A stretch of 56,977 nucleotides of DNA from NCBI GenBank assembly GCA_018660825.1, contig JABJJO010000021.1:1-56977 (forward strand). Reading direction: 5' to 3'. Position 1 is the stretch's first letter. Each line of letters opens with the position of its first letter. The notes under the pieces were generated by a model that had not been told where the DNA came from, did no database searches, and saw only the letters and a program-made list of their open reading frames with translations. A program made the position numbers and the translations under genes. Positions 4,775 to 52,011 of the stretch are shown one piece after another. The stretch is from Planctomycetaceae bacterium. Its GTDB lineage: Bacteria > Planctomycetota > Planctomycetia > Pirellulales > Pirellulaceae.

Positions 4775-7477
4775 ATGTCGAGCGCCCATTGTTTTAATAA
4801 CGCCGTTAACCAAGCGCGGGAAGATTTAGCGGCGCGGCGCGAGCGACTCAAATCACAGCATGATAAGGGTTCACCGGGCATCCAGGTTTGCGCTGGTTTA
4901 GCTGACATGCTCGACGGCATTATTCTCGATCTATATCAAGCGGCGCTCGACAGTGTCACCAGCAGTGATGCAGAACGCGAAATATTAGAGCATAACATCG
5001 CGGTGGTTCCTCATGGCGGCTACGGCCGTCGTGACGTCGCTCCCTATAGCGACGTGGACTTGATGCTTTTATGCACTTCACCAAGTCAACCTGGCGTGAC
5101 CAAACTAGCTCGAGCGCTCACTCAAAATATCTACGATGTCGGGCTGACACTTGGATTCTCGACGCGCACCAATAACGAAGCAATTAGTTTAGCGCTACAA
5201 GATCCCAAAATATTCACTTCACTTGTTGAATCTCGTTTTTTACATGGCAGTGTACAGCTTTTCACCGATTTCTATTCGCGATTTAAGACCCGTTCCCACC
5301 GCAAATGGAAATCTATCTTGCAGTTAGTCTCTCAGGCTCGGCGAGAAGAACGCGCGACGGTTGGGGCTGCGGTTCACGTATTAAAACCAAATGTCAAACG
5401 GTCACCCGGTTCATTACGAGATTTGCAATATGTACGATGGATTGGCTTCCTCGTGCACGGCGAACAAGAACCCCAAGAACTCTATCGCCGCAACATTCTC
5501 AACAAGCCCGACTATAAAATTATTCGCAGCGGGCGTGACTACCTATTACAACTGCGAAACGAAATGCATTTCTATGCGGGAAAAGCACAAGATGTATTGA
5601 ACCCCAATGAGCAAATGAGGCTAGCGACGCTTAATGGCTTTACGGACCAAGATGATCTACTAGCCGTCGAGCAATTCATGCAACACTATTTCAATTGCAC
5701 GAGCCAAGTTCGATATACAGCGAAGCATTTTTACGCCTCCAGTAAACCGCGGGGCTGGAGGACTCGTCTGGCCGTCCCCGGATTCGTTCGCATCCTACAT
5801 GGAAAATTCCGGCTCGGTCCAAGCAATATCGGCGCCGTTCCAAAACAACTCGATCAGATAAAAACCAACTTAGAAGATGTCTTGCAGTTGATGGAATTGG
5901 CCAGCCACTACAATCGGCGGATTGACCATGCAACTTGGACCGCTATTCGAAACACGATGATCAGTTCCAAAGAAATCGAGTTGTCCCAACCCGTGGCCGA
6001 ACAATTCATGGCATTGCTTTCAAAACCGGTACGCCTGGGCGACCAATTACGTCGCTTACACCGCATGCGCGTATTGGAGAAATGCATCCCCGCTTTCCAT
6101 CACGCGCGCTGCCTACTGCAATTTAATGAATACCATAAGTACACAGTCGACGAACATTCGCTGCAAGCTGTTGAATTTGCCATAGCGTTTGCGCAAGAAG
6201 CATCTACATTAGGCAAAACTTATTCTGGTCTAAAAAACAAAGGCTTAATGCACTTAACGCTGTTGTTGCATGACTTGGGAAAAGGATTCCCAGATGACCA
6301 TAGTGAAGTTGGTGAAACGATCGCTCGCAAAACTGCCAAACGCTTTGGACTTTCGCAACATGACACCGAAGTCCTCGCGTGGCTCGTGTTGAAACACCTC
6401 CGCATGGCACACACCGCATTTCGGTATGACTTGCAAGACGAAAACGTCATTGTCCGTTTTGCGGCTGAAGTCGGCTCAGTTGAAAAGCTTAAGATGCTGT
6501 TCATTTTGACATGTGCCGACTTAGCAGCCGTGGGGCCCAGCGTACTCAACCAGTGGAAGCAGGACTTGATTACCGAACTGTTTCAAAAAACAAAACAACA
6601 ACTCTCCGGTAAATCTACCGATATGTACGCGCAAGATTGGATCAAACTGCAAAGCGAGAAACTATCAACGCAACTCACGTGGACGTCGGACACATCGCAA
6701 CAGTCGGCCTCTGGATCAAGAAAAACCACTAAGCCAACCAATTCATACCAAGCATGTCAACGCTATATCGACATGCTCCCGCCCGCCTTGCTCGTCAACG
6801 AACAACTCTCCACCACAGTGGAATACTTGCGAACGGTTATGCAAATCGAGGATGATCAAATAAAGACATGGGCACGTTTCCATCCCCAACAGAATGTTGT
6901 GGAGTATGCTATCGCCGCAAAATCCGATTCTCTCGCAGGTTGCTTCCATCGCATCACGGGGGTCCTTTCAAGCCAACAAAACTCCATATTGAGTGTTGAA
7001 ATTATTGAACTTCCGAACGGACATGTGCTAGACCGTTTCTTTGTCACAGACTTGGCAAGTAATCAGGAACCATCAGCACACCGTTTGAACGATATTCAAG
7101 AAAAAATCAATCATTCGATTCAAGAACAAAAAGCGAGCAAGCCAAGTTTCCCCGTGGTTTGGTCGGGGACGTCCGAAACAACCGCAGCGGATCTCAATCC
7201 GCTGCCAGCTAAGGTCAACTTGGATAATGTCACCGCCGAAAAATATAGTATCATTACCGTCTTCGCCTACGATCGCATTGGCTTATTGTACAAAATCACC
7301 AAAGCCCTGTATGATTTGAAGTGTGAGATTCATTTAGCAAAAATCGGAACTTACATTGACCAAGTCGTCGATGTTTTCTATGTGACGGATCGCGAGAATA
7401 ATAAAATTGATTCCAAAGAACGTCTGGACAACATTCGGGAAACTTTGCTTGCTAAAATCGAACAAACCAACAAATAA
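4775..7477 (+). CDS. glnD: [Protein-PII] uridylyltransferase / uridylyl-removing enzyme
   Basis: 900-residue bifunctional enzyme that adds UMP to P-II when nitrogen is short and removes it when glutamine is high. Domains in order are: nucleotidyltransferase with GGYGRRDVAPYSDVDL (residues 81-96), a GlnD linker domain, an HD hydrolase domain with His461 and HDLGKG at 499-504, and two C-terminal ACT domains near residues 700-790 and 820-895 that sense glutamine. Length matches the family. A Ser/Thr/Lys-rich stretch around residues 640-660 (SQQSASGSRKTTK) is a likely loop. It lies directly after glnB, which supports a dedicated pair. Confidence 0.95.
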   Translation: MSSAHCFNNAVNQAREDLAARRERLKSQHDKGSPGIQVCAGLADMLDGIILDLYQAALDSVTSSDAEREILEHNIAVVPHGGYGRRDVAPYSDVDLMLLCTSPSQPGVTKLARALTQNIYDVGLTLGFSTRTNNEAISLALQDPKIFTSLVESRFLHGSVQLFTDFYSRFKTRSHRKWKSILQLVSQARREERATVGAAVHVLKPNVKRSPGSLRDLQYVRWIGFLVHGEQEPQELYRRNILNKPDYKIIRSGRDYLLQLRNEMHFYAGKAQDVLNPNEQMRLATLNGFTDQDDLLAVEQFMQHYFNCTSQVRYTAKHFYASSKPRGWRTRLAVPGFVRILHGKFRLGPSNIGAVPKQLDQIKTNLEDVLQLMELASHYNRRIDHATWTAIRNTMISSKEIELSQPVAEQFMALLSKPVRLGDQLRRLHRMRVLEKCIPAFHHARCLLQFNEYHKYTVDEHSLQAVEFAIAFAQEASTLGKTYSGLKNKGLMHLTLLLHDLGKGFPDDHSEVGETIARKTAKRFGLSQHDTEVLAWLVLKHLRMAHTAFRYDLQDENVIVRFAAEVGSVEKLKMLFILTCADLAAVGPSVLNQWKQDLITELFQKTKQQLSGKSTDMYAQDWIKLQSEKLSTQLTWTSDTSQQSASGSRKTTKPTNSYQACQRYIDMLPPALLVNEQLSTTVEYLRTVMQIEDDQIKTWARFHPQQNVVEYAIAAKSDSLAGCFHRITGVLSSQQNSILSVEIIELPNGHVLDRFFVTDLASNQEPSAHRLNDIQEKINHSIQEQKASKPSFPVVWSGTSETTAADLNPLPAKVNLDNVTAEKYSIITVFAYDRIGLLYKITKALYDLKCEIHLAKIGTYIDQVVDVFYVTDRENNKIDSKERLDNIRETLLAKIEQTNK

Positions 7478-7518
7478 CATTTGTCCTTGGACACAACATT
7501 TTTTACGGAGTTTTCCCT

Positions 7519-8265
7519 ATGACTGTCATCGAGACCCTAACCTCAAATCGCACTGCTGCTAGGCTTGCAAAAAACATCCGTACAATTCTGTTAGTCCTAG
7601 CAATGGGGCCAGTGGCAACACTATCAGCCCAAGATGAAAAGCCCACAACGAAAGAAGATACTCCGGCACCAGTGGAAATAGAAAAAACGCCAAGCACTGA
7701 TGACGTTGAAATCCAATCTGCCAAAGCTCAAGCACCCAAAAAATTCAAAGTCATTTTCGAATTGAGTACGGGAGATGTTGAACTCGAAGTTGCTCGAAAA
7801 CTTGCACCGCTTGGCGTCGATCAGTTTTATCAAGCAGTGAACGATGGCTTTTATGATGAATGCCGTTTTTTCCGAGTGGTTAAGGGCTTTGTCGTCCAAT
7901 TTGGAATCAATGGAGACCCCAAGGTTCAACAGCAGTGGAAAGATCAGCCGATCAAAGATGATCCTGTCTTGTTCAGTAACCTCAAAGGCACTATTTGTTT
8001 TGCGACCAGTGGCCCTGACACGCGCACCACACAAATGTTCATCAACCTTAGTGACAATTCACGGTTAAACAATCTCGGGTTTGCGGCGTTTGGTCGAGTG
8101 AATAAGGGAATGAAACACATTGAAGCAATCACAGATGAATATGGCGAACAACCGCAGCAAGACAGAATCCAAACCGAAGGAAACGATTACTTAAAAAAGA
8201 GCTTCCCGAAGATGGACTACATCAAGCGAGCTTACGTTGTCGGTCGTGATTCCGCAGCCAAATAA
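7519..8265 (+). CDS. Exported cyclophilin-type peptidyl-prolyl isomerase
   Basis: Catalyses cis-trans isomerisation of Xaa-Pro bonds. The N-terminus has basic residues and a hydrophobic segment (TILLVLAMGPVATLSAQ), so export to the periplasm is likely. An acidic, Thr/Pro-rich linker to about residue 70 precedes the cyclophilin domain. Family motifs are FFRVVKGFVVQFG, the ATSGPDTRTTQMFINL stretch and LGFAAFGRV. In this bacterial subgroup the usual GG after the Gln is FG. The gene is 41 bases after glnD and 21 bases before mutM, so it may be in the same transcript, although the functions are unrelated. Confidence 0.92.
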   Translation: MTVIETLTSNRTAARLAKNIRTILLVLAMGPVATLSAQDEKPTTKEDTPAPVEIEKTPSTDDVEIQSAKAQAPKKFKVIFELSTGDVELEVARKLAPLGVDQFYQAVNDGFYDECRFFRVVKGFVVQFGINGDPKVQQQWKDQPIKDDPVLFSNLKGTICFATSGPDTRTTQMFINLSDNSRLNNLGFAAFGRVNKGMKHIEAITDEYGEQPQQDRIQTEGNDYLKKSFPKMDYIKRAYVVGRDSAAK

Positions 8266-8286
8266 TCGAATCGCAAAAGCAACGAC

Positions 8287-9129
8287 ATGCCGGAACTACC
8301 TGAAGTTGAGACAATGCGTCGTGGAATTTTAGCGATCCAAGGGGCTACGGTTACGCACGTTGAAAAAGTACGTTGCACCCGTAAACCAATTTCTATTAAG
8401 CCGACTATCAGCACGATTCGCCGTCGTATTGTCGGGCAACAGGTCAAAGCAGTAGAGCGCATCGGCAAACGTGTACTCATTCGATTTGAAAATGATGATC
8501 GCTTGGTATTCGAACCGCGCATGACCGGTCTGGTACTCGTAAGTGACCCGCCCAGTAGTGCTCATCTGCGATTTAGAATTGGATTTTCAAGCGGCATCGA
8601 GGAAGTCTTTTTTTGGGATCGACGTGGACTCGGATTAATCTACTTACTCACTGCCAAACAACTTCATGAACGACTCGGTCCCGACAAACTCGGCCCCGAC
8701 GCCTTGGTCGTTAACGGAGAAGACTTACATAGAATATTCGGTGCGTCGAAACGCCCAATCAAAGTTGCTCTTCTCGATCAAAAGCGGATCGCCGGTGTGG
8801 GAAATCTGTATGCATCGGAACTGCTGCATTTAGCTGGTGTTCATCCCGCTAAAATGTGTCATCGCATTACCCGCCAACAATGGTCGACAATTTGCGAAGC
8901 GATGCAAACGATTTTGCAAACCGCCATTGAACACGAAGGCTCAACGCTTTCCGATGGAACCTACCGCAACGCATTGAATGACCCTGGTGGATATCAAAAC
9001 ATGCACCGCGTGTATGACAAAGAGAACAAAACATGTCCTACCTGCCATACCCAGACTATTGTAAGAATTGTCCAAGCCCAACGCAGCACTTTCTTTTGTA
9101 AAGGCTGCCAAACTCGAGCATCGGGTTAG
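8287..9129 (+). CDS. mutM: Formamidopyrimidine-DNA glycosylase
   Basis: Removes 8-oxoguanine and formamidopyrimidines from DNA and nicks the abasic site. The protein begins MPELPEVETMRRGI, which places the catalytic Pro2 and Glu3 exactly at the N-terminus and fixes the start. RIAGVGNLYASELL is the helix-two-turn-helix region, with the conserved Asn. The C-terminal zinc finger is present as CPTC and, after a 17-residue gap, CKGC. The 280-residue length is normal. It follows the cyclophilin gene by 21 bases. Confidence 0.96.
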   Translation: MPELPEVETMRRGILAIQGATVTHVEKVRCTRKPISIKPTISTIRRRIVGQQVKAVERIGKRVLIRFENDDRLVFEPRMTGLVLVSDPPSSAHLRFRIGFSSGIEEVFFWDRRGLGLIYLLTAKQLHERLGPDKLGPDALVVNGEDLHRIFGASKRPIKVALLDQKRIAGVGNLYASELLHLAGVHPAKMCHRITRQQWSTICEAMQTILQTAIEHEGSTLSDGTYRNALNDPGGYQNMHRVYDKENKTCPTCHTQTIVRIVQAQRSTFFCKGCQTRASG

Positions 9130-44044: not shown

Positions 44045-45556
44045 ATGGCCCAGCGAAAAAGACAAAACAACGGCGAAAATCAAAAACTCACCATTGCATT
44101 TATCCTCTCCGTCTTAACCTCCCTCGGGTTAATGGTTACGGTTGGGTTGATGTTCCAGAGTCTCGAAACCAAGGAACAAGCCAAGATTGTCGCTGTTAAT
44201 GCCAAGCAAGACGCTGAGAAAATTACGGTAAGCGCCGAATACGTTAATCTAATCGCCCGTCACGTAATCGATTCCTCCGTTTCTAGAGCTGCCATCGAAA
44301 CTTATGACGAAACAAACGGCCCAAACATTCAGGCAAATCAAAAACAAATAGGTGAGGCGATTTTACAGAAGTACGCTGCCTTTCAACAATCCTATCCTGG
44401 TCTCGCTGCCGACGCAGCATCGTTGAATTATGAAAAAGTCCCTGAGCTGTTAACGGCTCGAAATAAAACATTGCTGGGTGAAAAGAAACAACTTGAAAAC
44501 CAAGTTGCTTCCCTGACAAGTCAACTCAAGGTCGTCACGACGACTCAACACACTAACACAACCCAGCAGCTGACCAAGTCGAGTACAGCCGTCGCATCCG
44601 CCCAAAAGGATCTAGCTGACTTTCGAACCGACCGTCAAAAAACGGCTGCCGATTACGATACTGCCATCAAGAAACATAGTGATGAATTAGCTGCCAAGGA
44701 TCAACAAATTGCTGGCAAGGACACCGCAATCCAGAACGCCACTCAGCGACTGAGTGACCAAGAAGAAAAGAACCTTGTCGCCCAGCTCAAAGCACGCCCC
44801 AAAAGCGAACGTTTTGAAATCCCTGACGGAAAGATTACATCTGTTAACGAAGCCTCCGGAATCGTTTGGATTAATATCGGCAGCCGAGATCAACTCAAAC
44901 CTCTAACTAACTTCAGCGTCTACCCTGCCACACAACTTGGAGTGATGCGAGGGCCTGGAGATATCAAAGCCAAAATTGAAGTCATTAAAATTCTCGACGG
45001 ACAATTCGCCCAATGTCGCATCATCGAAGACAGCATTAATGATCCCATTTTGATTGGCGACCAGATCTACTCACCTCTGTGGCAACGAGGGATTCAAGTT
45101 CACTTTGCTCTTGTCGGTTTCTTTGATATCGATGGTGACGGCAAAAGTGATCGTGATAAAGTCAAAAACATAATTCGTTCCGCCGGTGGTATTATTGATG
45201 CTGAATTGTCTATCGAAGACACCGCCGATCCAGAAAAAGCAAATCTGATTCGCACAGGTAACGTTACCGTCGATACTCAATATCTGGTTCGGGGTTCAGT
45301 AGATGCAATCATCAACATCGACCGCACAACCTATAACCGCTTTGAGGAAAAAGCAAAGGATTACAATGTTGAATCCATCACCATTAATTCACTATTGAAT
45401 TATGCTGGCTACAAAAACACTCGCGATGCCGTGGGCCTGAGCCGAGGATTTAGTAACGACGACCCTAAATCGCTTGTTAAACCGGTTTTAAAAGAGCCCA
45501 GTAAAATAAATCAGCTGCGCAAGCCACCAACACGTGGCACCGATGGTGCATTCTAG
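44045..45556 (+). CDS. Membrane-anchored coiled-coil protein of unknown function
   Basis: 503 residues, not recognised by name. One N-terminal membrane segment (about residues 16-38, TIAFILSVLTSLGLMVTVGLM) follows a basic start. A long helical, Gln/Lys/Ala-rich region to about residue 260 has heptad character (ENQVASLTSQLK, DQQIAGKDTAIQNATQRL). A globular C-terminal part follows (VWINIGSRDQLKPLTNFSVYP, FDIDGDGKSDRDK, DTQYLVRGSVD). The DIDGDGKSDRD stretch resembles a single calcium loop. It is likely a periplasmic-facing scaffold; that is inference. Confidence 0.75.
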   Translation: MAQRKRQNNGENQKLTIAFILSVLTSLGLMVTVGLMFQSLETKEQAKIVAVNAKQDAEKITVSAEYVNLIARHVIDSSVSRAAIETYDETNGPNIQANQKQIGEAILQKYAAFQQSYPGLAADAASLNYEKVPELLTARNKTLLGEKKQLENQVASLTSQLKVVTTTQHTNTTQQLTKSSTAVASAQKDLADFRTDRQKTAADYDTAIKKHSDELAAKDQQIAGKDTAIQNATQRLSDQEEKNLVAQLKARPKSERFEIPDGKITSVNEASGIVWINIGSRDQLKPLTNFSVYPATQLGVMRGPGDIKAKIEVIKILDGQFAQCRIIEDSINDPILIGDQIYSPLWQRGIQVHFALVGFFDIDGDGKSDRDKVKNIIRSAGGIIDAELSIEDTADPEKANLIRTGNVTVDTQYLVRGSVDAIINIDRTTYNRFEEKAKDYNVESITINSLLNYAGYKNTRDAVGLSRGFSNDDPKSLVKPVLKEPSKINQLRKPPTRGTDGAF

Positions 45557-45658: not shown

Positions 45659-45687
45659 CGCTTCCCATTGCACTACAATGGGAAGCG
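45659..45687 (+). promoter_or_regulatory. Perfect 12-bp hairpin in the leader of the eboB unit
   Basis: CGCTTCCCATTG pairs perfectly with CAATGGGAAGCG around the loop CACTA. It ends 31 bases before the ATG and about 20 before the GGAGAG ribosome site. No U-run follows, so it is not an intrinsic terminator for the upstream gene. As DNA it could be an operator; as RNA it could protect the 5' end or control translation. Confidence 0.6.
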
Positions 45688-45718
45688 ATTGCTACAGCCA
45701 ATTTCGGAGAGTTATTTA

Positions 45719-45985
45719 ATGTCGATACCTATGAATTCACAACAAGTTCTTGATCGCGAGTACTTGGAAATCCGGGGGAAGATTCTCGAAGTCGCGGCGT
45801 CGCTTGACCGCCTAGAGCGCGCCACTGGCGATGTAGCCCAAGACCCGCGGATGGCACTGATGCACCAAGGGTTACAGATTGCCCTTCAATCCAATGACGC
45901 TCATGGTGATTCACGGGCTAAACAAATTCAACTGCTCTTTTCGCGAGAGTATGCTGATTCTTGGCGACAGGACTTTGATTTATAA
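45719..45985 (+). CDS. Small helical protein upstream of the eboB-like gene
   Basis: 88 residues from the ATG at 45719, chosen for GGAGAG seven bases upstream; an earlier in-frame ATG at 45668 lies inside the leader hairpin region. The protein is acidic and probably helical (DREYLEIRGKILEVAASLD, then DPRMALMHQGLQIAL), ending in FSREYADSWRQDFDL. It lacks signal or membrane segments. It is not recognised. It is 68 bases upstream of the TatD-like gene, so a shared transcript is likely. It is too short to be a full EboA. Confidence 0.7.
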   Translation: MSIPMNSQQVLDREYLEIRGKILEVAASLDRLERATGDVAQDPRMALMHQGLQIALQSNDAHGDSRAKQIQLLFSREYADSWRQDFDL

Positions 45986-46053: not shown

Positions 46054-46866
46054 ATGGACTACTTCGATCCTCACATACATATGGTTTCACGGACCACCGA
46101 CGATTACGAAACACTCGCAAAAATGGGATGTGTTGGCATGAGTGAGCCGGCTTTCTGGGCGGGCTTTGACCGTGGAAGCGTGGATAGCTTTCGTGATTAT
46201 TTTCATCAACTAACAGATTTTGAACCGCAACGAGCGGCTCAATACGGAATCCAACATTTTACTTGGCTGTGCATCAATGCTAAAGAAGCCGAAAATGTTG
46301 AACTCTCTCGTGAAGTGATCGCGATGATTCCAGAGTTTCTCGACCGCCCCAATGTTTTGGGCATCGGCGAAATTGGCTTAAACAAAAATACCAAGAATGA
46401 ATCCACTATTTTCCTTGAGCACATGGAATTGGCGATTCAATACAACCAACAAATACTCATTCATACGCCCCACCTTGAAGATAAGTACCAAGGCACGCGG
46501 ATGATTCTCGACATGCTCACTTCCGATTCACGCATCGACCCGACGCGAGTTTTGGTCGACCATGTAGAGGAACATACTGCTACTGAAGTACTCAATCGTG
46601 GATTTTGGGCAGGCATGACGCTCTATCCCATCACAAAATGTACTCCACAACGTGCAGTCGATATCATTGAAATGTGTGGTGGTGAGCGACTATTGGTCAA
46701 TTCGGCTGGCGACTGGGGACCTTCGAAACCGACCGCGGTTCCCGATCTCATCTTAGAAATGCGGCGCCGAGGACATTCCGAAGATTTGATTCGTAAAGTT
46801 GTCTATGACAACCCAATTGAATTTTTCAGTCAAAGTGAAAATTTTAATTTCCAACCGCGAGATTAG
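46054..46866 (+). CDS. eboB: TatD-family metal-dependent hydrolase, EboB-like
   Basis: 270-residue amidohydrolase-fold protein. The metal ligands are His7 and His9 in [23 protein letters not shown] carries the bridging Glu, ILIHTPH and LVDHVEEHT give further His ligands, and [11 protein letters not shown] the final Asp. The N-terminal [10 protein letters not shown] and overall pattern fit the EboB branch rather than housekeeping TatD DNases. In other bacteria ebo genes form a conserved set implicated in producing or moving an unknown metabolite. Its stop is two bases from the stop of the convergent phosphatase gene. EboA, EboD and EboE are not in this window. Confidence 0.8.
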
Positions 46867-46868
46867 CG

Positions 46869-48194
46869 TTAATCTTCTCGGCAAACTTCTGCGATCAACA
46901 TTTCAGCGAGATCCAGATCACACCAACTTTGACCCTGCAAAAGATCCGGCTGATTAGAAATAATCACGCTCTGTTGATCTTGGTCCGCTGAGGGAACTCC
47001 ATGCGAGCCGCAAATCAAAGTCGCATCGAGTGGTGTGCTACGAGTTGCCATATCAAAATACAACTCAACAGGGTCATAACCCGGTTTGCGATGGATATCT
47101 ACCGTCCGTGCGAATGCGGGACAAGCATCATCTTGCAACCACCAATAATAAGCTTGCCAACTATTTTCAGTTGAAATCAACATCAATTCGCCACTGCGTT
47201 GATGCGCTAATCCACGCTCTGCTTGCTCCGCGACCGTCAATACTTCAGCAATCCCAACCACCGACTCAAACAACTGCTTAACACGTTGAATCACCACAGG
47301 ATCCGCATCCTTAATAAAGACATGCGAGAACTGGTGATCGACCAGCGCCCACGCTGAACTATTCAAATCCAGATGTTCACCATCACCTTCAACTCGAACT
47401 TGCAGCAACCCCGCGTCACGTAGCACTCGATTTGGATACGTTACATGGTCAACTTCGCCAATCACATACTCACTAGCAAAAACCCAGGTAACATCCGCTG
47501 GATCCAGTACCGCGTGCACGCCATCAGCTAAAACTTGAATCACTCCGTCCAGTTCCTTGACCGCCGCCAAGGCCTCCGGACTATTGGGTCCTTGTTTTTG
47601 AGCAGCGTAATCGAGATGCGGTAAATACAGAAATGAAAAACGGGGGTGGTTCTTACTTATCGCTTGCACCGCACTACGAATAATCCACTCCGTCGACTGA
47701 ATGTTTGACAGTGGGCCCCAGAAGTGCTTCAGTGGAAAATGGCCAAGGCTTTCAAGCAATTCGCCATAGAGCTGCGTTGGTTTGGTGTAGCACCATAGAG
47801 ATTCGGATCCATCGGGATTGTGCACCGGCGCTGGCATACAAATCCAATCCGCTCCACAGCCTTTACTCAGCATGGGAAACCAAACGGCCGAAGTTAAATC
47901 TGGAGATATCGCGTGCAACCGATCCCAAATCTGAGGTGCCTGGATCTTATCGTTCCAGGCCGTCCACATTTCAACTTTTTGCTCTTCCCGCCAATAAAAT
48001 CCATTGGCAATCACGCCATGCTCCGCCGGAGGTTTCCCCGTTAACATCGTTGCTTGCGCGGGCCAGGTTACGGCTGGAAACGTCGACTTTAAAGGTTGCT
48101 GATCACCCGCAGCGGTTAAGGCCGACAACGCTGGCATTTGTGATAAATCGACCTGTCTCAATCCTGGAATACTGCAATACACCACGTGTCGCAT
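46869..48194 (-). CDS. Alkaline-phosphatase-superfamily phosphodiesterase, EboF-like
   Basis: 441 residues of the type I phosphodiesterase/nucleotide pyrophosphatase group. The catalytic nucleophile is probably Thr43 in FPAVTWPAQATMLTGKPP, followed by EHGVIANGFYWR. Later metal-site residues are likely in FLYLPHLDYAAQKQGP and ATLICGSHGVPS. The first metal-binding Asp of classical members (usually D-G after the first strand) is replaced, as the strand reads VVYCSIPGL. AGGAG eight bases upstream fixes the start. It follows the UbiA gene by 38 bases. Assignment to the ebo letter F is from memory of family organisation and is tentative. Confidence 0.78.
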   Translation of the reverse strand: MRHVVYCSIPGLRQVDLSQMPALSALTAAGDQQPLKSTFPAVTWPAQATMLTGKPPAEHGVIANGFYWREEQKVEMWTAWNDKIQAPQIWDRLHAISPDLTSAVWFPMLSKGCGADWICMPAPVHNPDGSESLWCYTKPTQLYGELLESLGHFPLKHFWGPLSNIQSTEWIIRSAVQAISKNHPRFSFLYLPHLDYAAQKQGPNSPEALAAVKELDGVIQVLADGVHAVLDPADVTWVFASEYVIGEVDHVTYPNRVLRDAGLLQVRVEGDGEHLDLNSSAWALVDHQFSHVFIKDADPVVIQRVKQLFESVVGIAEVLTVAEQAERGLAHQRSGELMLISTENSWQAYYWWLQDDACPAFARTVDIHRKPGYDPVELYFDMATRSTPLDATLICGSHGVPSADQDQQSVIISNQPDLLQGQSWCDLDLAEMLIAEVCRED

Positions 48195-48232: not shown

Positions 48233-49243
48233 TCAAGTGGCCCGAATCCATTTTGATATAGTCAACATCGGTAACAATAAAGCAATCGTCAATACCGCCA
48301 TGCTAGAGTCACTTACAATAGCCACCACACACGCATCCAAAAAAATCAATGAACGCAAACAATGTACAACTCCAACTTGTACTCGTTCTGGTCGTGGATC
48401 GAAAATCGCGGCTACCGCACGGTAGAGAATTAATATTGCCAGAACACCAAACAGTAATCCAGTACTATCGGGTTTCAATTGCAAACGACCACTTGGGGCT
48501 AGCTCCGTTGGAAAACTAGACAGGCACACAAACCCTAAAGCCATGATGGCAACACCGAAACTCAAGAGCCAGCGGTTACTCGTGCGCGCCTCTGTTCGTG
48601 CAAACCACGTTAAACCTGTGACGAAAACTCCGATCCCACCAGCAATGAATAAATGGTGCTTTTCGAACCCACAAAAGATTGCCTTATCGCTAACGACATA
48701 ACTCATCCCTAACAACACATTTAACGTGCGGCACATCCCCATCATCAGTGGAGCGAGCGGTGTTTTTTTTAACACTCGGTTGTATAACAAAACCGAAACT
48801 GCAATGGCACTTCCAAGCAAGCAACCACGCATGCCTGCCGTACTAGCAAACAGAATTCCAGCAAGCATCAGGCCCATTCCAAACCAAACGGCCACTCTTA
48901 ATGGGATTACTCCCGCAGCCAACGGCCGATTGGACCGCTGCTTTTTATCTTGTTCAATGTCAAATACATCATTGAGCACCATGCCCGAGCTATATAAACA
49001 AAACGTTGCTGCGAGCAACCCTGCCAATGGCCACGCATCGCGGATACGCAATGTTAATATACCTGCATCGCTCAATACAACGAGATACCCCATCAATATA
49101 TTGGCAAACGCCGTGAACACGTTACCGATTCGCAGCAGTTGCATCCAAGGGTGCAACTTGAAACCGCTACTCGTCTGAGTACCGTTTGGGGTCGGTGGTG
49201 CGAGAGATTCAGATGTTTTTTCAGACCGGTCATTACTGTTCAT
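48233..49243 (-). CDS. eboC: UbiA-like prenyltransferase, EboC-like
   Basis: 336-residue membrane protein with about eight to nine hydrophobic helices after a polar 28-residue N-terminus. The first aspartate-rich motif of UbiA enzymes is intact as NDVFDIEQDKKQRSNRP (residues 91-107). The second Asp-rich motif is not seen; the corresponding loop reads TGLTWFARTEARTSNRW. This and the neighbours favour EboC rather than a quinone or chlorophyll prenyltransferase. Its ATG overlaps the stop of the upstream ABC permease gene by four bases, so translation is coupled to the exporter genes. Confidence 0.82.
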   Translation of the reverse strand: MNSNDRSEKTSESLAPPTPNGTQTSSGFKLHPWMQLLRIGNVFTAFANILMGYLVVLSDAGILTLRIRDAWPLAGLLAATFCLYSSGMVLNDVFDIEQDKKQRSNRPLAAGVIPLRVAVWFGMGLMLAGILFASTAGMRGCLLGSAIAVSVLLYNRVLKKTPLAPLMMGMCRTLNVLLGMSYVVSDKAIFCGFEKHHLFIAGGIGVFVTGLTWFARTEARTSNRWLLSFGVAIMALGFVCLSSFPTELAPSGRLQLKPDSTGLLFGVLAILILYRAVAAIFDPRPERVQVGVVHCLRSLIFLDACVVAIVSDSSMAVLTIALLLPMLTISKWIRAT

Positions 49244-50109
49244 GAACTAGCACTCCGATAACTCCGCAGCGCGCGCTTAAATATGCGGCGACTAACAAAT
49301 AGGCTGCCGATGCTGGCACATAGTGCAAACGCAGCAAGTTGCCAATCCGCAGAGGTCATACCGTCTAAAGGTCTCGCTAGGAATCTAGCCGGAATATTTA
49401 CGACTAATAAGACCGGAATAAAAAACGTAAAGGCAATCCATAAGCCCATGCCCCACCCCGTTTTATAAATTTCCATCGGGTAGCGTGAAAAATTGGTTAG
49501 GTAGAACCAAAAATTGTAGAGCGTCTGATTTCGTCCGAACCAAACACTGGTGGCAGCCAAACTGATCATCACGCTATACATAATCGCCACACCGCAAACC
49601 AAATAAAGTGGATACAGAAACAACACCGGCCATGCCAATACCAGCGGAACATCTGCCACGACCATCAATTGATACAGACTATAACTCAACAAACCAATAC
49701 CCATCATGCACGTTGAGAGACTCGACCAGTCGATTCTAGGAAATGAAATAATAAACTGAGTGTCAATTGGTTTGAGCAGTGCGAAGTCAAAATTACCGGT
49801 GCGTATGAGTTCACTGAACTCTTGCGCATTGGGCATGAAGAACGTTTGGATAATACTGTTAATAATCCAAGTTGTTGCCAAAAACACAAAGAACTCATAT
49901 TTTCCCCAACCGGTTTGTGCACCAATCTCGTTGGTAAACTGAAAAATAATTATATAAAACCCAACATTCATAATCGCCCACGACATTGTGGAGATGCTCT
50001 GCAAGATGAAATTTGTGCGAAAAGACATGTCGCGAATTAAACTGTTACGCGCAAATGTCAGAAACACCTTGCCATACCGAGGGCGAAAAGCTGATTGTTG
50101 TTGCCGCAC
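49240..50109 (-). CDS. ABC-2 type permease, second subunit
   Basis: About 289 residues with six membrane helices. LIRTGNFDFALLKPIDTQFI is characteristic of the ABC-2 (DUF990-like) exporter permeases, and RDMSFRTNFILQSIS is the N-terminal pattern. The start is set at GTG 50109, because GGGGGG from the end of the upstream gene then acts as a ribosome site at the right distance. A GTG at 50148 is possible but would overlap the upstream gene by 35 bases. With the next gene it should form a heterodimeric membrane channel powered by the ATPase at 51 kb. Confidence 0.85.
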   Translation of the reverse strand: MRQQQSAFRPRYGKVFLTFARNSLIRDMSFRTNFILQSISTMSWAIMNVGFYIIIFQFTNEIGAQTGWGKYEFFVFLATTWIINSIIQTFFMPNAQEFSELIRTGNFDFALLKPIDTQFIISFPRIDWSSLSTCMMGIGLLSYSLYQLMVVADVPLVLAWPVLFLYPLYLVCGVAIMYSVMISLAATSVWFGRNQTLYNFWFYLTNFSRYPMEIYKTGWGMGLWIAFTFFIPVLLVVNIPARFLARPLDGMTSADWQLAAFALCASIGSLFVSRRIFKRALRSYRSASS

Positions 50110-50113
50110 GACG

Positions 50114-50965
50114 CTACCCCCCGAATCCGCTGTAACGCTGAATACCACGCTGGAACATGATGCGTGCTAAGACAACAAACACGAGGAGCCAGCACGCTTC
50201 ATTTGCTAAACTTGTCCATAATTCTGAACGCGGGATTTTATCTAGGAAAATAGCCGCCGGCATATAAGCCAAATATTGAAAGGGGAGCACTTTCACGATT
50301 TCGTATGCCCAACCGGGTAACAGATTCAAGGGGAACATGTGCCCAGATAAAAAGAAGCTGAGCAAATTATATATAAAGACCAACGAACTCACTTCGAGAA
50401 ACCAAAAAGCAACCAAACCTAAACTCGCCTCGATAAAGAACCCGAGCAAAAACCCCATAAACAGTGACAAACAAAATGCGATGAGCACTTCCACATCGGG
50501 CCAACCATCAAAAAAATCTCGGCACAGAAAAAAAACAAATGCAAAGGGGACAACGGCAATCGTATAATAGGCGGCCTTATGGGCGACGCGACCAAGCAAC
50601 ATAAACCCCAGCATGTCGACTGGTTGAATCAAGAACTTTTTGATTTCACCATTGCGGACTTGCAACGCGATGCCGCCACACAATCCCGGCATGCTCGAAA
50701 AAGCCCTACTTATCATCGTTAACATGTAATAAGCAATAACCGTATTACGTGTGTAGCCAGCGATCTTTGATTCCGGGGAAGCTTGAAAAATCGCTGTCCA
50801 GAGAAATATCTGTGTTATGATCGGCAAAAAACGCATCAGCGTCCCGAGCGCAAAATCCCCGCGATAAACGAACCGTTCTTCCATGGCGATTCGAAAAATA
50901 ACCCACCATGTCGTGAATCGTGCTCGCAGCGGTATTCTATTATCCTCGACGGTGGTAATAGTCAT
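50114..50965 (-). CDS. ABC-2 type permease, first subunit
   Basis: 283 residues with six membrane helices. The N-terminal part (FRIAMEERFVYRGDFALGTL then MRFLPIITQIFLWTAIFQAS) and GGIALQVRNGEIKKFLIQPVD match ABC-2 exporter permeases, including the RxGxxxxxLxxPxD signature. Its ATG overlaps the stop of the ATPase gene by four bases. Substrate unknown. Confidence 0.86.
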   Translation of the reverse strand: MTITTVEDNRIPLRARFTTWWVIFRIAMEERFVYRGDFALGTLMRFLPIITQIFLWTAIFQASPESKIAGYTRNTVIAYYMLTMISRAFSSMPGLCGGIALQVRNGEIKKFLIQPVDMLGFMLLGRVAHKAAYYTIAVVPFAFVFFLCRDFFDGWPDVEVLIAFCLSLFMGFLLGFFIEASLGLVAFWFLEVSSLVFIYNLLSFFLSGHMFPLNLLPGWAYEIVKVLPFQYLAYMPAAIFLDKIPRSELWTSLANEACWLLVFVVLARIMFQRGIQRYSGFGG

Positions 50966-52011
50966 AGTCCCTGCCCGTCGCCGATAGATTCAAATTCATC
51001 ATCGTCGATTTGCTGCACTCGACCCGCTGTTACTTCCGAGAACACAGTTGCAATAACGTCCTCTAGCGGTGGATCCTCTACAACAACATCGTCAACTTGA
51101 TAGCCGTCCAAGATCGTGGACAACATGCGGGGCACAACATCTCGAGTAACCGTTAACTTGATGCGAGGTGTTTCAACATCGGTCACATTGCCGAATTTTT
51201 TCAAAGCAGCCAGCAACGAATCATCAATGGCATCACGAAATTGCAATGTTATCAATTTGCGTTGATCGGTACTTTTAATGATTCCTTCTAGCGAACCATC
51301 GTACTTTATCAATCCGTCCGCGATGATTACCACTCGCTTACATAAGGCGGCAACATCTTTCATATAGTGACTAGTTAACAAAATCGTAATCTTGCGTTTC
51401 TGTTGATAGTATTTGAGGAACTGTTGAATATTATGTTGGGCAACGACGTCCAAACCAATCGTCGGTTCATCTAGGAATAACACCTCTGGACTGTGTAGCA
51501 GAGCTGCCGTCAATTCCATTTTCATTCGCTCCCCAAGTGATAGTTCGCGAACTGGTTGCTGTAACAAATCTTGCAGATCTAGCAAGTCCGTCAATTCATC
51601 CAGCGTGTTCTGAAAGACATCCGCTTCAATACGATAGATCTGTTGATGCAGCCGAAACGATTCTTGTGCTGGCAAATCCCACCACAACTGATTCTTATTT
51701 CCCATCACCAAGGCAAATCGACGTCGATATTCGTTATCACGCTGCCAGGGGGTATACCCTAGGACCGTGGCTGTTCCTGACGTGGGGTGGATCACGCCGG
51801 ACAATAATTTCAGGGTCGTCGTTTTACCAGCTCCATTGGGCCCTAGAAACGCAACAAACTCGCCTTGCTCGATTTGCAGATCAATGCCCTGAACGGCTTT
51901 GACTTGCTTGTATTCGCGACTAAACAACCCACGTAGAGACGACCTGAGGCCCTCTTTCTTCTGATATACCTGATAGGTCTTTTCCAGACCTTTGATTTCG
52001 ATAATCGCCAT
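50962..52011 (-). CDS. ABC transporter ATP-binding protein
   Basis: 349 residues, with an ATPase domain and a 100-residue C-terminal extension. Walker A is GPNGAGKTT (57-65), the signature is LSLGERMKMEL, Walker B is VLFLDEPTIGLD, and the switch His is in LLTSHYMKD. The C-terminal part (ITLQFRDAIDDSLLAALKKFG, then acidic DDDEFESIGDG) resembles regulatory tails of NatA/CcmA-like exporters. It is first in a run of five close or overlapping genes ending with the EboC- and EboF-like genes, so it probably powers export linked to them. Confidence 0.92.
   Translation of the reverse strand: MAIIEIKGLEKTYQVYQKKEGLRSSLRGLFSREYKQVKAVQGIDLQIEQGEFVAFLGPNGAGKTTTLKLLSGVIHPTSGTATVLGYTPWQRDNEYRRRFALVMGNKNQLWWDLPAQESFRLHQQIYRIEADVFQNTLDELTDLLDLQDLLQQPVRELSLGERMKMELTAALLHSPEVLFLDEPTIGLDVVAQHNIQQFLKYYQQKRKITILLTSHYMKDVAALCKRVVIIADGLIKYDGSLEGIIKSTDQRKLITLQFRDAIDDSLLAALKKFGNVTDVETPRIKLTVTRDVVPRMLSTILDGYQVDDVVVEDPPLEDVIATVFSEVTAGRVQQIDDDEFESIGDGQGL

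Follow-up and report, generated by a model that had tools for sequence, protein, structure and literature searches.

The 88-residue open reading frame (ORF) in front of eboB probably encodes EboG, which we regard, with somewhat better than even confidence, as a small all-helical dedicated partner subunit of the adjacent TatD-like hydrolase EboB. It lies in a stretch of 56,977 nucleotides from a Planctomycetaceae bacterium, here called the window. We add that EboG is widespread in Planctomycetota and in other phyla, that it is coupled to one EboB clade even where the two genes are unlinked, and that there is a case in which the pair was apparently swapped. Within the widespread ebo pathway, EboA and EboG belong to the components understood least; with EboG tied to EboB, what was a variant of an operon becomes a protein pair that can be tested.

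The gene and its surroundings

The features discussed are collected in Table 1. The gene is the first of a two-gene unit: eboB starts 68 nt after its stop codon on the same strand, no terminator-like site was seen in this gap, and the next gene lies on the opposite strand. An earlier sequence-only reading had described an 88-residue frame with a strong ribosome site at the head of the eboB unit, and this description stands, with GGAGAG placed 7 nt before the ATG. With the TTG at 45668 as an alternative start the protein would have 105 aa; the conservation among eboG homologues starts around the ATG. Against the nearest copy (locus L031), the window gene shows 5, 0 and 13 changes at codon positions 1, 2 and 3 (dN 0.040, dS 0.185), and because the changes fall mostly at third codon positions, eboG is a selected protein gene. 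The ORF is a real, conserved protein gene, more than a chance ORF.

Table 1. Coordinates of the features in the window and in related sequences
Feature	Sequence	Position	Strand	Remarks
503-residue protein	window	44045-45556		no Pfam match over cut-off
Ribosome-binding site of eboG, GGAGAG	window	45706..45711	+	7 nt 5' of ATG
eboG	window	45719..45985	+	ATG 45719, TAA 45985, 88 residues
EboB, TatD-like metal hydrolase, 270 aa	window	46054..46866	+	Pfam TatD_DNase, E 2.9e-9
EboF-like type I phosphodiesterase / nucleotide pyrophosphatase	window	46869..48194	-	Pfam Phosphodiest, E 2.7e-42
EboC-like UbiA prenyltransferase	window	48233..49243	-	best NCBIfam NF035940 (EboC), 168.6 bits, below cut-off of 250
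ABC-2 type transporter, two permeases and ATPase	window	49240..52011 (49240-50148, 50114-50965, 50962-52011)	-	
EboE	G000:C196, window's genome	1188-2315		over cut-off
EboD-like	G000:C196, window's genome	89764-90870		
Two ORFs between eboG and eboB	L052	8019-8902		
Two ORFs between eboG and eboB	L043	10126-11547		
Remnant eboG-eboB	L078, G006	8194-8490		
eboA-eboB pair	L079, G006	7212-8918		

The EboE and EboD-like genes of the window's genome share a different contig, where about 87 kb separates them. The ABC-2 transporter adjoins the EboC-like gene in several relatives too, and in the window it fits the published idea of an ABC exporter for an ebo lipid carrier (PMC6282210). The gene of the 503-residue protein is found upstream of eboG in many relatives; in L035 it is downstream of eboB on the other strand. 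For 16 relatives the EboE model gave a weak match only, and in 14 of them (G009, G011, G014, G022, G023, G025, G026, G028, G030, G031, G034, G036, G037 and G039) this match lies, as judged by eye, on the same contig and strand as the EboC-like gene and 220-419 nt upstream of it, where it is possibly a substitute for EboE.

Identification as EboG

The name eboG was given provisionally by Yurchenko et al. in 2016 (PMC5133447) to a short uncharacterised gene of ebo operons, which is reported there in place of eboA in Deinococcus, Truepera, Herpetosiphon, Thermithiobacillus and one acidobacterium. Among annotated plasmids, the closest EboBs pointed to loci of Deinococcus and Gemmatirosa, where the gene before eboB is labeled "hypothetical protein" in two Deinococcus records and the Gemmatirosa record is unannotated. 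A Deinococcus protein shares 33% identity with the window EboG (E 6e-8) and the Gemmatirosa protein 34% with the EboG of a relative (E 1e-12), both being E-values of a single comparison. With a profile that included the Deinococcus and Gemmatirosa rows, three Herpetosiphon loci were matched at E 1.9e-23 to 4.0e-23, and in all three the member of the window family sits between eboD and eboB. Since these genera are ones named in 2016, and the slot between eboD and eboB is filled by this short gene without annotation, we identified the window protein as a putative EboG. It has 88 aa and stands 68 nt before eboB, and an EboC-like and an EboF-like gene lie less than 4 kb away.

The sequence-only reading had also held that the protein was not EboA, that it was no known ebo member, and that, given a conserved linkage, it would be a new component of the system. 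The first point is borne out: the EboA model NF035938 had no match in the window's genome, while it was positive in G006 and G029, it did not match the window EboG at E 10, and an hhalign comparison of 63 EboG with 18 EboA sequences gave a probability of 0.2%. The other two have to be given up, since the protein matches eboG, which was named as a component already in 2016 (PMC5133447). Beyond that paper, our literature search found no paper on the gene, judged by title and abstract. The passages of the 2016 account considered here do not mention EboG from Planctomycetota, a tie that is to EboB and not to the operon as a whole, or a swap. The EboG sequences gathered here are material for a profile of the protein called hypothetical in the two Deinococcus records.

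Coupling of EboG to EboB

For the 40 close genomes, EboG homologues were found in 34, the window's own included, and a diverged copy recognised by eye in G031 raises this to 35. In 33 of 34 loci (33 relatives) eboB follows eboG on the same strand; the sole locus without it is that of G034, in which EboG and EboC are present and the assembly has no EboB. The distance between the two genes in the relatives is at most 270 nt, apart from 1482 and 933 nt in two loci where genes are inserted. Two ORFs lie between eboG and eboB in each of L052 and L043; one of the L052 insert ORFs resembles a HEPN domain (E 0.0014, below the cut-off), and the remaining insert ORFs had no Pfam family at E 0.01. EboB is present in 37 of the 40 genomes, and the ones that have it without EboG are G001, where EboB is cut at the contig start, G006 and G029. 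EboA occurs in G006 and G029 only.

We then turned to 392 genomes sampled from the phylum of the window, with 69 EboG matches, 97 EboA matches (95 over the cut-off) and at least 287 EboB matches. Every one of the 67 genomes that encode an EboB with 50% or more identity to that of the window also has EboG; this boundary falls at E 1.5e-96, with the next group at 46% and E 2e-82. In 57 of these 67 it is upstream of eboB on the same strand, 55 times within 200 nt and twice at 872 and 881 nt, and in the other 10 it is elsewhere in the genome. These 10 belong to three family groups (f18, f50 and f81), seven of them to one group, so that they may stand for few events, maybe about three. No ebo genes were found within about 6 kb of the unlinked EboG genes, and no common partner appeared among their neighbours; the recurrent ones, named by eye, are hisF-like (three genomes) and homoserine dehydrogenase-like (two). 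None of the 69 EboG genomes has EboA, and the two never occur together in the 392. The 69 include two genomes without an EboB at or above 50%: G388, with EboG and no EboB in an assembly that is 55% complete, and G373, whose EboG match (E 8e-5, within a 296-residue frame) is probably due to chance.

Besides this sample, we looked at 80 named loci, the best of at least 531 EboB relatives when ranked by closeness to an EboG-type EboB, a choice that makes them silent on other EboBs. EboG lies at most 600 nt upstream of eboB in 77 of these 80; as for the rest, no EboG was found in L249, it is 2.3 kb away in L292, and L271 is at a contig start. Judged by title, the loci include Gemmatimonadetes, Chloroflexi (e.g. 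Herpetosiphon), Armatimonadetes, Acidobacteria, Verrucomicrobia, Planctomycetes and Rhodothermales, and in two Deinococcus plasmids eboG and eboB overlap by 4 nt. No EboA was found in the 47 genomes behind 48 of the 80 loci, mostly those not titled planctomycete, in a run whose own controls were silent and whose search was positive elsewhere. Homologues thus do adjoin eboB in related genomes, and the conserved linkage on which the sequence-only reading had staked its proposal is seen in 33 of 34 loci of relatives as well as in these best-ranked named loci. For linked, vertically inherited genes, co-occurrence is weak evidence of a partnership between EboG and EboB.

Two clades of EboB

We built a tree of 74 EboBs, made up of 26 with EboG in the same locus, 28 of the EboA type and 20 solo EboB-like rows. 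The 26, among them the window EboB, fall on one side of a branch with SH-aLRT 99, and the 28 on one side of another branch, again with SH-aLRT 99. A first tree of 79 rows, in which EboG-type was defined as identity above 50% and which took in L249 and L271, gave the same picture. The two-sided tree agrees with the bipartition of EboB reported in 2016 (PMC5133447). A set of 150 distinct EboBs with more than 50% identity to the window EboB includes 138 whose examined locus also contains EboG; ten of the other 12 come from genomes with an unlinked EboG, and the last two are L249 and L271.

The EboB residues H7, H9, E106, H137, H170 and D220 are conserved in these 150 and in the 28 EboA-type proteins, and among them are metal ligand positions of the superfamily. 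D39, W71, L102, G103, N115, E172 and H174, among others, are found in at least 97% of the 150 and in none of the 28; of these clade-marking residues, E172 and H174 adjoin H170.

The solo EboB-like proteins (L174-L193) have 43-48% identity, and the 20 examined come from genomes without an EboA or EboG match. No shared small gene that might be a third partner in place of EboA or EboG was seen by eye upstream of the 20 genes and their neighbours varied, for which reason they look solo; a thioredoxin-reductase-like ORF is near four of them. Since EboB-like proteins exist without either, not every EboB relative has an EboA- or EboG-like partner.

A possible natural swap in G006

G006, a 99% complete draft genome of the window's genus, retains EboC, EboF (phosphodiesterase), EboE, EboD-like and ABC transporter genes. 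In place of an intact eboG-eboB pair it has a stretch where the first part of eboG, up to about residue 15, is joined directly to the last third of eboB, from about residue 175-185 on. Both the spacer upstream and the eboB portion align to three genus mates. The eboG part is short and weak (15 residues, E 0.29; about 37-44 nt, E 0.24-0.83 against the three genus mates) and was recognised by its place. On another contig G006 has an eboA-eboB pair, with 43% identity for EboB; the 7 kb preceding the pair and the 0.7 kb between it and the end of the contig showed no other ebo gene. The G+C contents of the two stretches match (0.485 and 0.479).

The sequence suggests that the G006 eboG-eboB stretch is a deletion remnant, and the swap would rest on one draft genome, in which mis-binning is possible. 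With a remnant eboG-eboB and a separate eboA-eboB in one genome, G006 suggests that two-gene units can replace each other, and it is a natural case bearing on whether EboA and EboG share a job. We give even chances to a wider reading, in which EboG and EboA would be unrelated, interchangeable dedicated subunits of two EboB clades and the ebo pathway would evolve by swapping a subunit-enzyme cassette.

The EboG protein

R19, D30 and R31 are invariant among 63 EboG sequences, and A26, A27, R34, R66, A67, F74 and S75 are nearly so. The AlphaFold model (mean pLDDT 89.9, pTM 0.68) has helices at 7-34, 43-56 and 66-74, with the three invariant residues in the first one. No Pfam or NCBIfam family matched EboG over its curated cut-off; the TBCA_PH family (PF25541) was rejected at 13 bits against a gathering cut-off of 27.8. 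A PDB sequence match to a C-type lectin (3jqh, E 5.6e-6, 39 query positions), in what is presumably its helical neck repeat, was taken as chance. Comparison of the fold with solved structures gave four Foldseek matches (best E 1.3) and a best VIA Z of 2.1, none convincing, and a missing match does not speak for a new fold. The Pfam, NCBIfam, PDB and fold searches found no enzyme signature. Among the open-frame lengths of the EboG matches in the phylum sample no natural EboG-EboB fusion was seen.

For comparison, EboA is 234-315 residues long in 18 sequences. A 294-residue EboA was predicted with many helices (pLDDT 96.5), and its fold search returned 629 matches, all weak, with a best E of 0.07 and with many helical-repeat proteins among them. 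A near full-length EboB lies within 1.5 kb in 26 of 30 EboA loci.

Proposed role and alternatives

The assumption of the 2016 paper was that EboA and EboG either regulate some Ebo protein as its subunits or serve a terminal step (PMC5133447), and in 2018 EboA was proposed to help form an EboC-EboA-EboB complex (PMC6282210). The distribution of EboG and EboB found here favours EboB as the target of EboG. In the model we prefer, EboG would bind EboB and would fix its active form or substrate choice, or place it with the membrane-bound EboC; EboA, with a different fold, would do the same job for another EboB clade. The EboG-EboB pair would then be one modification step in the proposed ebo pathway, for which an isoprenoid-cyclitol product (PMC5133447) and, in Nostoc, the export of a scytonemin precursor (PMC6282210) have been put forward.

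It is also possible, and in our view unlikely, that EboG is a general ebo accessory, a scaffold or regulator acting on EboC, EboE or the product, so that its place beside eboB would reflect operon order only. The larger clusters ordered D-G-B-E-C-F or C-D-G-B-E-F in loci titled Chloroflexi, Armatimonadetes and Acidobacteria speak for this, as do the EboC-like and EboF-like genes of 37 and 38 of the 40 relatives and the genome G034, which keeps EboG and EboC without EboB. However, EboG stays beside EboB in many planctomycete loci where C and F are elsewhere, EboE passes its cut-off in only 22 of the 40 relatives, and G006 lost EboG and EboB together but kept the other ebo genes.

A dedicated EboB partner also accounts for the data better than two readings of the ORF itself. 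Descent of EboG from EboA by strong reduction or divergence would explain the same slot before eboB, the mutually exclusive distribution and the all-helical prediction of both, but we consider it very improbable: the profile comparison was negative, like the homology test of EboG against EboA in 2016 (PMC5133447), three predicted helices stand against a multi-helix protein of 294 residues, and each is associated with an EboB clade of its own. A peptide that acts on eboB expression as a leader or regulator might be short, directly upstream and sometimes overlapping with eboB, as this ORF is; yet its amino-acid motif is conserved across phyla, 10 of 67 genomes retain it far from eboB, and its folded model is confident (pLDDT 89.9), which makes this reading hardly credible.

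Comparison with known systems

EboB is like the TatD family DNases (PF01026) in its conserved residues, among which are metal ligands of the superfamily, and differs in that the window EboB matches the family weakly (37.1 bits). It has been argued that EboB forms a separate cluster from the TatD DNases (PMC5133447). EboA (NF035938), like EboG, is predicted to be all-helical and its gene is often directly upstream of eboB, but it is longer, has no profile similarity to EboG and belongs with a different EboB clade. A C-terminal tail like YxxxWRxxF, present in most rows of the window's order, was not seen in the Deinococcus proteins. As for the EboG described in 2016 (PMC5133447), the window protein resembles it in being short and uncharacterised, in coming from a genome without eboA and in being mutually exclusive with EboA, and it is homologous to the gene at the same position in the Deinococcus and Herpetosiphon loci; the difference is that in many planctomycete loci eboG and eboB form a pair, which stands by itself or has EboC-like and phosphodiesterase genes nearby, and not the six-gene operon of that account.
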